Assembly (NCBI GenBank): GCA_947476875.1
Contig: CANJSG010000004.1
Location: 1 to 50,647 of the forward strand
Reading direction: 5' to 3'
Length of the DNA stretch: 50,647 nt
From: Verrucomicrobiota bacterium
GTDB taxonomy: Bacteria; Verrucomicrobiota; Verrucomicrobiia; Limisphaerales; CANJSG01
Shown here piece by piece: positions 18,466-50,647 of this stretch. Within the stretch, counting starts at the first letter, position 1. Each line of letters begins with the position of its first letter. The notes under the pieces were generated by a model. The model ran no database searches and was not told the DNA's origin. It worked only from the letters and a program-made list of their open reading frames with translations. The position numbers were made by a program, and so were the translations under genes.

Positions 18466-18756
18466 ACAAAGGAGTGTCTTCACACCGAGAACGATGGCTG
18501 ACTTGCCTGCGGCCTCGGACACAGACCTGGCGGTAAGGCGAAGGCTCCTGCCGAGCCGCCGCTGTGCGTCCTAAAATCCTCGCGGCCACAGCGGCCAAGC
18601 AATTGGCCTCGGTCGCCTTCGAGCTTCCCGCGAGAAGCGACCCTGTTGGTCGGAGGCCCCAAGGCGGCTCGGCGGGAGCCGTCGCCCTACCACGCGGGAC
18701 TTCACCCGACTCTGCGAGACTTCACCTCTCTTGCTCGGGTTGACGACACTCCTTGG
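18466..18756. repeat. About 290-bp inverted-repeat-bounded interspersed element (MITE/REP-like)
   Basis: Imperfect terminal inverted repeats ACAAAGGAGTGTCTTCACACCGAG (18466-18489) and CTCGGGTTGACGACACTCCTTGG (18734-18756). Internal inverted pair GGTAAGGCGAAGGCTCCTGCCGAGCCGCC (18532-18560) and GGCGGCTCGGCGGGAGCCGTCGCCCTACCA (18663-18692). Confidence 0.7.
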
Positions 18757-33644: not shown

Positions 33645-34847
33645 TCAGCGGACCAGCTCGAAGGCGAAGCCCTTGAGGTATTCCGTCTCGGGCATCGACG
33701 GGAGGACCGGGTGGTCCGGGCTCTGGGCGTAGATGTCGACGCGGCGGAGCAGTTTCCTCTGGTCGAACGCGGCCGAGAGGATGCAGTCGAGGAACATCTG
33801 TGTGCCCACATGGTGCGAGCAGCAGAACGTCGCGAGCACGCCGCCCGGCTTGAGCAGCTTGAGCCCGCGCACGTGGATTTCCTTGTAGCCGCGCATCGCG
33901 CCTTCGACGGCCGCGCGTGTCCGCGTGAACGACGGCGGATCGAGCACGACGACGTCGAACTGGGGAATCAGCTTCTCGTGCGGGCCGGTGTGCGTGCGGG
34001 CCTTCAGCCAATCGAAGGCGTTGGCCGTCTCGAAGGTGCACTGTGCGTCGAGCTTGTTGGCCTTCGCGTTGGCCCCGGCGAATCCCGTGGCTTCCGCGCT
34101 CTGGTCCACGCCCACGACGGTCTTGGCTCCGGCCCGGGCGGCATGGAGGGAGAAACCACCGAGGAACGAGAAGCAGTCGAGCACCGTGTCGCCCTTGCGG
34201 ACGAGGTTGGCGACCTTCTGGTAGTTCACCTGCTGGTCGAGGTAGAGGCCGGTCTTGTGGCCGCCGGCGATGTCGACGTCGAACTTCAGGCCGTTGAGCT
34301 TGATGCTCACGGGCCCTTCGATCGTGCCGTGGATGACGCCGTTGGATTCTTCCATGCCCTCGAACTTGCGGAACGAGCTTTCGCTGCGTTCGACGATGGC
34401 ACGGGGCGAGAAGACCCGTTTGATGGCCTCGACGATGTGGTGCTTCCGCTTCTCCATGCCGAGGGACGAGATCTGCATGACGAAGACATCCTCATACTTG
34501 TCGAGGATCAGGCCGGTGAGCAGGTCGGACTCGGCGTTGACCACGCGGAACGACGTCGCCGTGGGCATGTGCCGCTGGCGGACGGCGAGGGCGGAGCGGA
34601 GTCGTTCCTCGAAGAAATGGACGTCGATGTCGGTGCGTTCGGAGTCGATGACGCGCACCCGGATCTTCGAGCGGGAATTGTAGAAGCCGACGCCGAGAAG
34701 GCGCTGGCGGTGGTCCTTGATCTGGACGAGGTCGCCGTCGTTGGCGGGACCGGTGAGGCGCAGGATGGCGCCTTCATAGATCCAGAGGTGGCCGGCGACG
34801 ATCCGGTCGGCTTCGCCGGGTCGGAGGAGAACAGTTGTGAGGCTCAT
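33645..34847 (-). CDS. rlmI: Class I SAM-dependent 23S rRNA (cytosine) methyltransferase, RlmI-like
   Basis: PUA-like N-terminus (AGHLWIYEGAIL); DVDIAGGHKTGLYLDQQVNY; VLDCFSFLGGFSLHAARAGA; FDVVVLDPPSFTRTRAAVEGAMRGYKEI; LATFCCSHHVG. Confidence 0.92.
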   Translation of the reverse strand: MSLTTVLLRPGEADRIVAGHLWIYEGAILRLTGPANDGDLVQIKDHRQRLLGVGFYNSRSKIRVRVIDSERTDIDVHFFEERLRSALAVRQRHMPTATSFRVVNAESDLLTGLILDKYEDVFVMQISSLGMEKRKHHIVEAIKRVFSPRAIVERSESSFRKFEGMEESNGVIHGTIEGPVSIKLNGLKFDVDIAGGHKTGLYLDQQVNYQKVANLVRKGDTVLDCFSFLGGFSLHAARAGAKTVVGVDQSAEATGFAGANAKANKLDAQCTFETANAFDWLKARTHTGPHEKLIPQFDVVVLDPPSFTRTRAAVEGAMRGYKEIHVRGLKLLKPGGVLATFCCSHHVGTQMFLDCILSAAFDQRKLLRRVDIYAQSPDHPVLPSMPETEYLKGFAFELVR

Positions 34848-34984
34848 GGTTTGTAGACAAGCGGCCGGTTCGGCCGCAAAGATCGAGATTGATACAGAAC
34901 CCGGAGGGGGAAGGAAGCACGAAACCCAAAGGCCAAAGGCCGAACTCGGATTCCAGATAGCAGACTCCAGATGCCGGATGTTCT

Positions 34985-35071
34985 GTCGCGAAGTGACTCA
35001 GGAGGGTAGCCAGCCACAAGGTGGCTGGTTCTGGTCCCGATGAATCCTCCAAGTCCTGGAGGGACGGCGGG
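34985..35071. repeat. Tri-hairpin interspersed repeat (copy A)
   Basis: GTCGCgaaGTGAC, then GCCAGCCACaagGTGGCTGGT, then GTCCTggaGGGACGGCGG; aligns with 50528-50610. Confidence 0.75.
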
Positions 35072-35207
35072 CTCTTCTTGGGCTCCCTGCCCGTCGTCCT
35101 GCTTGCTTCGTCACCTTGGTTTTCATTTGGCCTTTGGCCTTTGCTCGTCGTCATTTTCTCCCGCAATCGGCCCTTGCCCCGACGGTTCGCGCGACTAGCT
35201 TCAGCCC

Positions 35208-36155
35208 ATGTCCCCCAGCCTCCAAGATGCGCGTCCCGCAGTCAGCGGGGGCTCGTTCCTTGATCCGGCGGCCTTGATGCGCATCCGCAACCTGGAACTG
35301 CGCGCGCAGGTCGTGGTGGAGGGATTCTGGTCGGGCATGCACCGCTCGCCCTTCCACGGCTTTTCCGTCGAGTTCACCGAATACCGGCCCTACGTCGTGG
35401 GCGACGACCTGCGTTACCTCGACTGGCGGCTCGTGGCCCGGAGCGACCGCTACTACATCAAGAAATTCGAGGACGAGACGAACCTCCCGTCGCACTTGCT
35501 GCTGGATCTCAGCCCGTCGATGAACTTCAAGTCGCTCGGCTGGTCCAAGCGCGACTACGCGGCGACGTTGGCCGCGACGTTCAGCCAGTTCCTCCACGAC
35601 CAGGGCGATGCGGTGGGGTTGCTGACGTTCGATGATCGGGTGCGGGACTATCTGCCTTCGAAACATCGGAAGGGTCATCTGCGGCAGATCATGCTGGCGT
35701 TGGAAAAGCAGTCTTCGGCCCGGACCACCAGTCTCGCGGAACCGCTGAAGCGCATCGTCGAAATCGTCCGTCGCCGCGGGATGATGCTGTTGATCTCCGA
35801 CCTTCTCGCGCCGCTGGAAGACCTGGAGAAGAACCTCGGCCATCTCGCCGCGTGCGGTCATGACGTCGTCGTTTTCCAGGTGCTCGATCCGGCCGAGACG
35901 ACGTTCCAGTTCCAGAAGGCGACGCGGTTCGAGGACATGGAATCCGGTCGTGATCTCTACCTGAACCCCGCCGCTGCGCGGGAGCGCTACCTCGAGGCTT
36001 TCGGCAAACACCAGTCCGCCGCGAAGTCCCTGTGTGAACGGCTCGGCATCGCCTTCCACGTGCTGACAACGGATGTGCCGTTGGACATTGCCTTGTTTGA
36101 ATTCCTCCGCGACCGCCTCGCCCGCGGCCGCAAGCCGGTGAAGACCCGCCGCTGA
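35208..36155 (+). CDS. DUF58 domain-containing protein
   Basis: FHGFSVEFTEYRPYVVGDDLRYLDWRLVARSDRYYIKKFEDETNLPSHLLLDLSPSM. Confidence 0.93.
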   Translation: MSPSLQDARPAVSGGSFLDPAALMRIRNLELRAQVVVEGFWSGMHRSPFHGFSVEFTEYRPYVVGDDLRYLDWRLVARSDRYYIKKFEDETNLPSHLLLDLSPSMNFKSLGWSKRDYAATLAATFSQFLHDQGDAVGLLTFDDRVRDYLPSKHRKGHLRQIMLALEKQSSARTTSLAEPLKRIVEIVRRRGMMLLISDLLAPLEDLEKNLGHLAACGHDVVVFQVLDPAETTFQFQKATRFEDMESGRDLYLNPAAARERYLEAFGKHQSAAKSLCERLGIAFHVLTTDVPLDIALFEFLRDRLARGRKPVKTRR

Positions 36156-43891: not shown

Positions 43892-45688
43892 ATGAATGTT
43901 TCTCCGATCCGCCAGCCGGTTGAAATGGTAGGGCGAAGGCTCCCGCCGAGCCGCCTCAACGCTTCTGAAAACCGACCGGTCGAACCGGCAACGCGCGAAC
44001 CCCAGGTGGGTCGAGCCGCGCTGCGACTCGACGGCCAGCCGCAGCGCGGCTGGCCCCACCTTCCCGCATTCTTGTCCCGCTCCCTCGCCGCCGTTCTCAC
44101 GTTCGCCCTCGTTCTTGTCGGCTGCGGATCGAAGGAGACCACCGTGCAGACCGGCGACCGCGACCAGGTCCTGCACAAGGGCAACGGAACCGAACCGCGC
44201 GACCTGGATCCGCACACCATGATCTCGGTCGAGGAGGACAACATCATGCAGGCGCTGTTCGAGCCGCTCGTGTGGCGGCATCCCGACACGATGGCTCCGA
44301 CGCCGGGCGTGGCGGAGAAGTGGGACATCTCAGCCGACGGCAAGGTCTTCACGTTCCACCTGCGCAAGAACGCCCGCTGGTCCAATGGCGATCCCGTGAC
44401 CGCGCGCGATTTCGCCTACTCCATGCGGCGGGCACTGACGCCGGAACTCGCCGCTGAATTCGCCTTCTACCTTTATCCCATCCGCGGCGCGGAAGCCTTC
44501 AACACGGGCAAGTCGAAGGACTTCACCACTGTCGGCGTCGAGGCCGTCGACGATCTCACGCTGAAGTTGACCCTTGCCGAGCCGACGCCCTACTTCATGT
44601 CGCTTCTGACCATTTCCACCTACATGCCCGTGCACAGCGCCACCGTCGAGAAGGCCGGCGGCGGTTCCCGCAAGGGAACCCTGTGGACGCGTCCCGGAAA
44701 CCACGTCAGCAACGGGCCCTTCACGCTCTCGGAATGGTCTCCCTCCAAGCACATCACGCTCCGGCGAAACACGAACTACTGGGACGCCGCCAACGTGAAG
44801 CTGGCCGAAGTGCGCTTCTACCCGATCGAGAATTCCGACACCGAGGAGCGCGCCTTCCGCGCCGGGCAGCTCCACCTCACCGCCGCGTTGCCGACTTCGA
44901 AGATCGCGGCATACAAGAAAGATGAGCCCCAGTTCCTTCGCACCGTCCCCTACCTCCGCGCGCAATACATCGGCTGCAACGTGACCAACGGCGTGCTCGC
45001 CAACCGTCTCGTCCGTCGTGCGCTCGGCCTCGCCATCGACCGCGAAGGCATCGTCAACACCGTCACCCGCGGCGGTGAAACCCCGGCGTGGTCGTTCGTC
45101 GCGCCGAAGATGGCCGGCTACGAATCCCGTGCGCGCCTTCCCTTCGATCCCGCCGCCGCGAAGAAGGCCCTGGCCGACGCGGGATTCGCCGACGGCAAAG
45201 GGTTCCCGAAACTGCAGATGGTCTTCGACAACGCCGAGATCACCAAGATCACCGCCGAAGCGATCCAACAGATGTGGCGCGCGACGCTCGGCATCGAAGT
45301 AGGGCTGCAGAACATGGAGAAGAAGGTCTACCTCGACCGCATCAACTCGAAGGACTACGAGCTCTATCTCGGCGGTTGGACGCCGGACTTCCCTGATCCC
45401 ATGGGCTTTCTCGAGATGTGGGGATCCAGCTCCACGGCGAACTACGCCGGTTTCCGCAATGCGGCCTACGACGACCTGCTCGCCAGGTCCGGCCGCGAAC
45501 TCGAAGTGCCCAAGCGCATGGAACTGATCCGTCAGGCGGAGGATCTGTTGACCGACGAAGCGCCGATCCTGTCGATCTACCACCACGCCCGCGTCTACCT
45601 CAGCCGTCCGTCGGTGAAGGGTTGGCATACCAATCCGCTCGACACGCACGCCTACAGCCGGGTGTTCCTCGAAGCCGGCGGCAAGTGA
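43892..45688 (+). CDS. Peptide ABC transporter substrate-binding lipoprotein (OppA family), paralogue; true start may be TTG at 44072
   Basis: TEPRDLDPHTMISVEEDNIMQALFEPL; FTFHLRKNARWSNGDPVTARDFAYSMRRAL. The first 60 codons are repeat-derived; a compact lipoprotein signal (L)SRSLAAVLTFALVLVGC begins at 44072. Confidence 0.88.
   Translation: MNVSPIRQPVEMVGRRLPPSRLNASENRPVEPATREPQVGRAALRLDGQPQRGWPHLPAFLSRSLAAVLTFALVLVGCGSKETTVQTGDRDQVLHKGNGTEPRDLDPHTMISVEEDNIMQALFEPLVWRHPDTMAPTPGVAEKWDISADGKVFTFHLRKNARWSNGDPVTARDFAYSMRRALTPELAAEFAFYLYPIRGAEAFNTGKSKDFTTVGVEAVDDLTLKLTLAEPTPYFMSLLTISTYMPVHSATVEKAGGGSRKGTLWTRPGNHVSNGPFTLSEWSPSKHITLRRNTNYWDAANVKLAEVRFYPIENSDTEERAFRAGQLHLTAALPTSKIAAYKKDEPQFLRTVPYLRAQYIGCNVTNGVLANRLVRRALGLAIDREGIVNTVTRGGETPAWSFVAPKMAGYESRARLPFDPAAAKKALADAGFADGKGFPKLQMVFDNAEITKITAEAIQQMWRATLGIEVGLQNMEKKVYLDRINSKDYELYLGGWTPDFPDPMGFLEMWGSSSTANYAGFRNAAYDDLLARSGRELEVPKRMELIRQAEDLLTDEAPILSIYHHARVYLSRPSVKGWHTNPLDTHAYSRVFLEAGGK
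43926..43955 (+). repeat. Copy of the 30-nt GGTAGGGCGAAGGCTCCCGCCGAGCCGCC repeat
   Basis: 29/30 identical to the reverse complement of 18663-18692 and 27/29 to 18532-18560. Confidence 0.85.
44004..44061. repeat. Paired-hairpin inverted repeat within the 5' part of the OppA-like ORF
   Basis: GTCGAGCCGC-GCT-GCGACTCGAC (one mispair) followed by GGCCAGCCGC-AGC-GCGGCTGGCC (perfect). The whole is bounded by AGGTGGG and CCCACCT. Confidence 0.82.
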
Positions 45689-49059: not shown

Positions 49060-50505
49060 TCAGGCGAGGAGCTTCTTCACCAGTTCGCCGTGGATGTCGG
49101 TCAGCCGGAAGTCGCGGCCTTCGAAGCGGTGGGTGAAGCGGGTGTGCTCGATGCCGAGCAGGTGGAGCATCGTGGCGTGCAGGTCGTGCACTGAGACGGG
49201 ATCGGCCACGATGTTGTAGCCGAAATCGTCGGTCTCGCCGAGGACGAGTCCGGGCTTCACGCCGCCGCCGGCCATCCAGAGCGAGAAGCAGCGGGGATGA
49301 TGGTCGCGGCCGAAGCTGGTCTTGGAGATGTCGCCCTGGGAATAGGCCGTGCGTCCGAACTCGCCGCCCCAGATGACGAGCGTGTCGTCGAGCAGGCCGC
49401 GTTGTTTGAGATCCTTGACCAAGGCGGCGCTGGCTTTGTCCGTGTTCTTCGTCTGGTTCTTGATGCCGTCGGGCAAGCCGCCGTGGTGGTCCCAGTCGCG
49501 GTGGCAAAGCTGGACGAAGCGCACGCCGCGTTCCGCCAGGCGCCGCGCGAGCAGGCAGTTGTTGGCGAAGGATGCCTTGCCCGGTTCCGCGCCGTAGGCC
49601 TCGAGGACTTCCTTGGGCTCCTTCGCGAGATCCATCAGGTCCGGCACGCTCGTCTGCATGCGGAAGGCGAGTTCGTAGTTCTCGATGTGCGTGGCGATCG
49701 AGGGATCGCCGAGCGCGCCGAGCTGTTTGCGATTGAACTCCTGCATCGAGTCGAGCAACTGCCGGCGGGCGTTGCCGCTGAGGCCGGGCGGATTGGAGAC
49801 GTAGAGAACGGGATCGCCCTGGCTGCGGAGCTGCACGCCCTGGTAGTTGCCGGGGAGGAATCCATTTCCCCAGTAACGCGCCTGCAAGGATTGGCCGCCG
49901 CTGCCGCTGACGAGGACGACGTAGGCCGGGAGGTTCTGGTTCTCGCTGCCGAGACCGTAGGCCAGCCATGCGCCCATCGTCGGCCGGCCGGGCTGCTGGT
50001 TGCCGGTGCCGAAGAAGGTGACGGCCGGATCGTGGTTGATCGGGTCGGTGTGCATCGAGCGGATGAGCGCGATGTCGTCCACGATGCCGCCGATGTTCGG
50101 GAGCATGCTGCTCAGCTCGACGCCGGACTTGCCGTAGCGTTTGAACTCGAAGGCGGGCCCGACGCACTTCAGCACGGACTGGCCGGCGGTCATGCCGGTG
50201 ATGCGCTGGCCCATGCGGACGCTGGGCGGCAATTCCTCGCCGGTCATCTCCTTGAGCTTCGGCTTGTGGTCGAAGAGATCGAGGTGCGAGGGCGCGCCGG
50301 ATTGGAAGAGGTAGATGACGCGTTTGGCCTTGGGCGCGAAGTGGAGCGTTTTGAGCGCGCCTCCGATTCCGGATGGAGCCGCACCTGCGCCGAAGAGGGA
50401 AGGCTTGAGCAAGGTAGCGAGCGCCATCGCGCCAAGCCCGGTCGTGCTGCGGGTGAGGAAGGAGCGGCGGGTCAACGCGCGTTCGATGTCGGACTGGAAG
50501 ATCAT
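49060..50505 (-). CDS. DUF1501 domain-containing protein, Tat-type N-terminus (paralogue of 24655..26064)
   Basis: TRRSFLTRSTTGLGAMALATLLKPSLFGAG; VIYLFQSGAPSHLDLFDHKP; VIWGGEFGRTAYSQG; GRDHHPRCFSLWMAGGGVKPG. Confidence 0.93.
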   Translation of the reverse strand: MIFQSDIERALTRRSFLTRSTTGLGAMALATLLKPSLFGAGAAPSGIGGALKTLHFAPKAKRVIYLFQSGAPSHLDLFDHKPKLKEMTGEELPPSVRMGQRITGMTAGQSVLKCVGPAFEFKRYGKSGVELSSMLPNIGGIVDDIALIRSMHTDPINHDPAVTFFGTGNQQPGRPTMGAWLAYGLGSENQNLPAYVVLVSGSGGQSLQARYWGNGFLPGNYQGVQLRSQGDPVLYVSNPPGLSGNARRQLLDSMQEFNRKQLGALGDPSIATHIENYELAFRMQTSVPDLMDLAKEPKEVLEAYGAEPGKASFANNCLLARRLAERGVRFVQLCHRDWDHHGGLPDGIKNQTKNTDKASAALVKDLKQRGLLDDTLVIWGGEFGRTAYSQGDISKTSFGRDHHPRCFSLWMAGGGVKPGLVLGETDDFGYNIVADPVSVHDLHATMLHLLGIEHTRFTHRFEGRDFRLTDIHGELVKKLLA

Positions 50506-50527: not shown

Positions 50528-50610
50528 GTCGCGGAGCGACCATGGAGATTAGCCGGCCACGAAGCGGCTGGTATCCGGCCGGATGAAACTCGTCCCGGAG
50601 GGACGGCGGA
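50528..50610. repeat. Tri-hairpin interspersed repeat (copy B)
   Basis: GTCGCggaGCGAC, GCCGGCCACgaaGCGGCTGGT, CGTCCCggaGGGACGGCGG; same order and spacing as 34985-35071. Confidence 0.75.
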
Positions 50611-50647
50611 GTGACTGGAGGATTCCCGCGTCCCTTCAGGACGCAGA

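Follow-up and report, generated by a model that had tools for sequence, protein, structure and literature searches.

Tri-hairpin arrays in a Verrucomicrobiota genome as probable arms of a REPIN-like element family with a cognate HUH transposase

Two arrays of three small hairpins in a Verrucomicrobiota contig belong to a dispersed family of elements with inverted arms, one copy of which carries a transposase gene at its centre. We consider it very probable that the arrays are the arms of a REPIN-like, non-autonomous family which is, or formerly was, mobilised as folded single-stranded DNA by a cognate, single-copy HUH transposase. The window under study, i.e., the whole stretch of 50,647 nucleotides that was analysed, is the entire contig C4 of a 4.17-Mb draft genome in 317 contigs, and it holds two copies of the array, A and B. 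An earlier, sequence-only reading had reported this pair, 15 kb apart, and both copies are present where it placed them—with their stems, their loops of 3 nt and, in copy B, a single broken pair of the middle stem—and exceed chance when compared by BLAST with their own genome. What that reading missed is the unit, as the triple hairpin makes up just half of an inverted pair of arms.

Both copies contain one complete arm (Table 1). Copy A occupies the intergenic region from which a SAM-methyltransferase gene (minus strand, 33645-34847) and a DUF58 gene (plus strand, 35208-36155) diverge, and copy B is found just upstream of a DUF1501 gene (minus strand, 49060-50505; all assignments from Pfam). 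Judged from the alignment, the TAG foot of copy A appears to occupy the position of a REP-type guide motif. Copy A is a solo arm whose partner, if any, is decayed; minus-strand covariance-model matches across the weak candidate for this partner were limited to the antisense of copy A's own arm. The second arm of copy B retains H3, the contig end at 50647 cutting off the remainder. An inverted pair of sequences (AAAGGCCAAAGGCC and GGCCTTTGGCCTTT; window 34908-34944 and 35126-35162) also brackets copy A on both sides. Moreover, the window contains an unrelated dispersed repeat of ~160 bp with inverted ends (GGTAGGGCGACGGCTCCCGCCGAGCCGCC; window 18532-18691 and 43926-43971), represented by 101 BLAST pieces in the same genome.

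Table 1. Features of the two array copies (positions in the window; CM, covariance model).
Feature	Position	Strand	Basis
Copy A, one complete arm (H1-TAG-H2-H3)	34985..35070	+	CM R1, 87.0 bits, E 1.7e-16
Copy A H1, GTCGC-GAA-GTGAC	34985..34997	+	Sequence; covarying stem
Copy A TAG foot (GTAG with preceding G), 5' base of H2	35007..35009	+	Alignment; foot tally over homologues
Copy A H2, CCAGCCAC-AAG-GTGGCTGG	35010..35028	+	Sequence-conserved hairpin
Copy A H3, GTCCT-GGA-GGGAC	35053..35065	+	Covarying stem
Copy A second arm, decayed start, weak candidate (CCCGTCGTCC...)	35066..35110	+	Read from sequence
Copy B, one complete arm	50528..50609	+	CM R1, 80.1 bits, E 6.5e-15
Copy B H1, GTCGC-GGA-GCGAC	50528..50540	+	Sequence
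Copy B TAG foot of H2 (TTAG)	50550..50552	+	Sequence
Copy B H2, CCGGCCAC-GAA-GCGGCTGG, one mismatch	50553..50571	+	Sequence; alignment
Copy B H3, GTCCC-GGA-GGGAC	50592..50604	+	Sequence
Copy B inverted second arm, H3 only (GCGTCCCTTCAGGACGC)	50628..50644	-	Sequence; layout as in nine complete short pairs elsewhere

The alignment of copies A and B with 19 further arms of the same genome (n = 21) revealed a single family. Each arm, ~85 nt long, consists of a hairpin H1 (5 bp, triloop), a linker with TAG at its end, a second hairpin H2 (8 bp, triloop), a spacer, a third hairpin H3 (5 bp, triloop) and a CGGA-type tail; a full element comprises an arm, a centre and the same arm inverted, with both arms facing inward. 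The total length was 179-190 bp in seven measured pairs, and the centre of the short pairs spans 9-26 nt. A covariance model trained on these 21 sequences and run on their own genome detected 41 arms at E<0.01, so a result of two copies only, which the sequence-only reading had set against its own proposal, did not occur. Nine short pairs (on contigs C186, C3, C5, C99, C77, C149, C72, C196 and C27) and a further pair on C187 were among the strongest matches, all of them inward-facing. BLAST of copy A against the genome likewise gave matches outside the window down to E=3e-13, with copy B at E=2e-6; the identity of dispersed copies to copy A is mostly 73-80%, and recent activity is doubtful because the copies have diverged. 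The copies are intergenic, often beside gene ends, and the flanks of different copies are unrelated. As in REP/REPIN populations, short palindromes are scattered between genes and frequently stand in inverted pairs, and, as in MITEs, short gene-less copies share their inverted ends with a gene-bearing copy. No direct repeats indicative of target site duplication were found at the ends of eight elements—the expected outcome for HUH/Y1 enzymes—and the target-site consensus is weak, with T at -3 and A at -1.

The stems were then considered in the 21-arm alignment, which was made by sequence and not fitted to structure. Paired cells amounted to 97.1%, compared with 89.2% in shuffled alignments and 30-50% in the slid control, and two-sided changes affected 8 of the 10 pairs of H1 and H3 (four of five in each stem). 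None of 500 shuffles came up to any of these figures, a significance that the shuffles overstate because the copies are related; the slid control, together with one H1 pair that alternates between C-G and G-C (11/9), argues that the covariation signal is real. H2, which has a (G/T)TAG foot, displays only G-U wobbles or pairing losses, with no compensation, and is conserved in sequence. Of the proposed changes that keep pairing, the compensatory ones, whose absence among additional copies would have spoken against that reading, are carried by H1 and H3 and not by the middle stem. Mobilisation, and selection acting on structure, as that reading suggested, gain support from the dispersal, from the compensation in H1 and H3 and from a Y1 gene between the same hairpins, but its contrast with primary sequence does not apply to H2, whose sequence is conserved. 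Calculated DNA and RNA folding energies do not discriminate between the strands, as the DNA parameters assign the same energy to sense and antisense hairpins and include no GNA bonus.

That reading had proposed a search for a RAYT/Y1_Tnp (PF01797) gene flanked by the same hairpins, and a Y1 gene in this setting was found on contig C187. The genome contains six PF01797 matches, none of them on C4. The intact C187 gene (L028:1487-1933; 148 aa) sits at the very centre of a pair of family arms, forming a 637-bp version of the element with no room for tnpB, and it is single-copy, being 41-46% identical to the other two transposases of the genome. Its AlphaFold model (pLDDT 91.3, pTM 0.84) predicts an HUH fold, and in a fold search of the PDB the top 29 matches were IS200/IS605-type transposases (e.g., IS608 and ISDra2), the 30th being RAYT 4er8. 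The protein has the single HUH/Y1 domain of IS200/IS605 enzymes, clears the threshold of the NCBIfam IS200 model (65.5 bits against 55) and scores 21.7 bits with REP_Tyr_transpos (cut-off 80). Residues H55, H57, W94, Q95, Y114, Q118, H121 and H122 are invariant in forty homologues, and the tyrosine motif reads YIANQEEHH, accompanied by WQ. These features match the signatures of TnpA-Y1 subclass 1.2, an assignment made by motifs and not by a tree; the closest homologues belong to Verrucomicrobiota, including Limisphaerales. Two other identities were rejected: class 2 RAYT, as the motif is YIANQEEHH instead of Y...NP and REP_Tyr_transpos stays far below its cut-off, and class 3 (NHVH, YV[VI]xEQ), on motifs. 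We also observed that the C187 copy lies between an apparent MoxR-type ATPase gene and a DUF58-like gene, copy A being likewise just upstream of a DUF58 gene; this common neighbourhood is possibly a coincidence.

The same genome offers an internal comparison. The transposase on C27 has tri-hairpin arms of its own, which differ in sequence from those of the C187 family, and a search with such an arm detected a small population of its own, made up of pairs in inverted order on C36, C54, C73 and C122 plus a lone arm on C79. The transposase on C61 also has hairpin flanks, for which no dispersed population was found in the genome. The arms therefore follow their enzyme, with the C27 arms having their own element population and the C61 flanks none, and both the C187 and the C27 genes are flanked by their cognate palindromes, as in REP/REPIN systems. 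The start of the C27 gene (L030:1543-1560) reads ATG TCG TAA between well-kept arms, so that this gene looks inactivated.

To gain a broader view of this association, 80 homologues were collected from GTDB contigs. Their record labels cover Verrucomicrobiota, Planctomycetota, Kiritimatiellae, Lentisphaerae, Armatimonadetes, Acidobacteria, Sumerlaeota, Hydrogenedentota, Deltaproteobacteria/Desulfobacterota, Bacteroidetes and one Gammaproteobacterium. When the two flanks of a locus were compared as inverted repeats, 41 of 79 loci scored above 99% of the swapped controls. H1-(N)TAG-H2-H3 arms, sought automatically under strict rules of order and spacing and read in arm sense, were found in 40/77 upstream and 40/77 downstream flanks, compared with 2.7% and 3.0% of shuffled and 3.6% of distant flanks; about half of the homologous genes thus have no strict triple on a given side. 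The H2 foot is most often GTAG, TTAG or ATAG, with TAG conserved, and GNA triloops were counted in 41/67 H1 and 42/59 H3 hairpins. In a hand-cleaned set of 42 arms, 60 of 71 triloops were GNA and none (0/71) was of the reverse-strand type TNC. Additionally, in this set the tails that follow H1 and H3 within one arm are more alike than expected by chance (0/1000 permutations), which points to H1 and H3 being a single module in repeated form. A homologue on a Persicobacter plasmid has full arms on both sides, and some homologous genes contain internal stops.

Within the order, 86 of 146 genomes, the present one included, proved to have arms, with transposase genes inside paired arms in further genomes (e.g., G023, G081 and G129) and additional genes at loci of G050 and G144. 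Within one genus, elements present in G094 are missing from G147 at sites whose flanks are mostly 89-98% identical. These are presence/absence differences rather than exact empty sites: a base-exact empty site was not found in the orthologous spacers examined in the congener, and because the whole spacer differs, the comparison does not tell an insertion apart from a deletion or from turnover of the spacer. In these two congeners, near-identical genes enclose wholly different orthologous spacer contents (L185, L188 and L189 versus L240, L242 and L241), as if the intergenic spacers turned over as blocks; one such spacer of G147 (L241) holds sequence resembling the GGTAGGGCGACGGCTCCCGCCGAGCCGCC-ended repeat of the window. 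G094 also contains a second arm family (L190, L192; CCGGGGGCAACGCCCCCGG) that faces outward, H1 to H1, the opposite of the main family.

The closest parallels are REP/REPIN sequences with their TnpA-REP (RAYT, class 2) enzymes in E. coli, Pseudomonas and Stenotrophomonas, which share the intergenic palindromes dispersed as inverted pairs, a TAG-type foot 5' of the hairpin, and a single-copy HUH/Y1 gene between the same palindromes, with one enzyme per repeat family. However, the arms described here have three hairpins instead of one, the foot reads GTAG, TTAG, ATAG or another form, with TAG conserved, where REPs have GT[AG]G, and the enzyme is of class 1 (Y...Q..HH) rather than Y...NP. IS608 and ISDra2 (IS200/IS605, subclass 1.1) have in common with the present system the HUH/Y1 fold predicted for its enzyme, the catalytic residues, a compact single-domain protein and hairpin ends, but differ from its inverted three-hairpin arms, many gene-less copies and C-terminal F(Q/R)EE...DERY.W tail. 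Subclass 1.2 was defined by a length of 148 aa and the motifs DH[IV]H, WQ and Y...Q..HH, with REP association given as 'no' and Cyanobacteria and Bacteroidetes as the main hosts (Quentin et al. 2018, PMC6006769). The enzymes studied here agree in length (about 148 aa), in DH[VI]H, WQ and Y...Q..HH, in the C-terminal extension and in low copy number, and differ by their tri-hairpin arms and their occurrence in many other phyla. The automatic REP search of that study required GTAG or GTGG and, where hairpins were short, loops of 2-5 nt (Quentin et al. 2018, PMC6006769), and we infer that the negative entry arose because such settings would pass over feet of the TTAG or ATAG type as well as H2 hairpins with long loops. 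The text of Di Nocera et al. (2013, PMC3733652) already describes GTAG palindromes in the PVC group (Opitutus terrae, Rhodopirellula) and, as TIRYTs and TIRtrons, Y1 transposases within inverted repeats, some of them partly self-complementary; it does not describe a three-hairpin arm with GNA mini-hairpins. Most TIRYTs fall in subclass 2.1. Nor did we find a description of such an arm in the text, figures aside, of the open-access literature.

Hairpins of single-stranded DNA with GNA loops are known for their unusual stability. If the system works like TnpA-REP and IS608/ISDra2, an arm would fold once its strand becomes single-stranded, and the C187 transposase would read H2 and its TAG foot, the likely recognition core, sequence-specifically. 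H1 and H3, whose stems vary freely while the GNA loop is kept, may act mainly as structure. Cutting and joining of the element, in single-stranded form, would then fall to the presumed catalytic Y114 together with H55/H57, and the element would enter new intergenic sites without target duplication. Binding, cutting and movement of the arms by this enzyme, the strand used and any present-day activity are all part of this proposal. TnpA-REP enzymes act on one strand of folded hairpins, the foot being a possible guide (PMC8266576), and some DNA mini-hairpins (GCGAAGC type) are extraordinarily stable (PMC10527192), a property that may extend to the family arms, where GNA loops could fix strand choice. 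In a wider version, to which we give an even chance, subclass 1.2 and its relatives would constitute a distinct phylum-crossing REP system with, as substrate, an H2/TAG hairpin framed by two interchangeable mini-hairpins—GNA in arm sense—that label the strand or keep it in place for the enzyme.

Stem covariation, G-U wobbles and intergenic positions often beside gene ends would also fit cis-acting RNA elements kept by the host (mRNA stabilisers, attenuators or terminators), with the transposase gene a passenger between two of them. We regard this as very unlikely, given the inverted two-arm layout with a gene exactly in its centre, arms that track the transposase across phyla, two families each having its own enzyme, and an Rfam search of the arrays in which no family exceeded threshold; moreover, copies A and B are not 3' end terminators of the flanking genes seen here, because A is located between divergent genes and B on the upstream side of the adjacent gene. 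An ordinary IS200/IS605 insertion sequence of subclass 1.1 with miniature derivatives, to which the IS200 model and the closest folds point, is just as improbable: subclass 1.1 has Y[IV]ENQ with W[TS] and near-identical, high-copy genes, whereas the present system has YIANQEEHH with WQ, a divergent gene in one copy per family, inverted arms and an element too small for tnpB.

Divergence among the copies and internal stops in some homologous genes could instead indicate decayed relics of an extinct family, or a repeat spread by recombination, with a linked transposase that has no mobilising role. This reading, slightly less remote than the other two though still improbable, is at odds with the unrelated flanks of the copies, the intact C187 gene and the stems kept by compensation. 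A REPIN-like family mobilised, now or in the past, by its cognate transposase accordingly remains our preferred explanation.

On this basis, a likely DNA partner is now at hand for transposases that in 2018 were classed as a group without IS or REP features. REP-type systems, with a new arm architecture, would extend to many phyla, including Verrucomicrobiota, Planctomycetota, Armatimonadota, Acidobacteriota, Desulfobacterota and Bacteroidota, and both the way in which an HUH enzyme reads a multi-hairpin substrate and the possible role of GNA mini-hairpins in fixing strand choice in vivo become testable.
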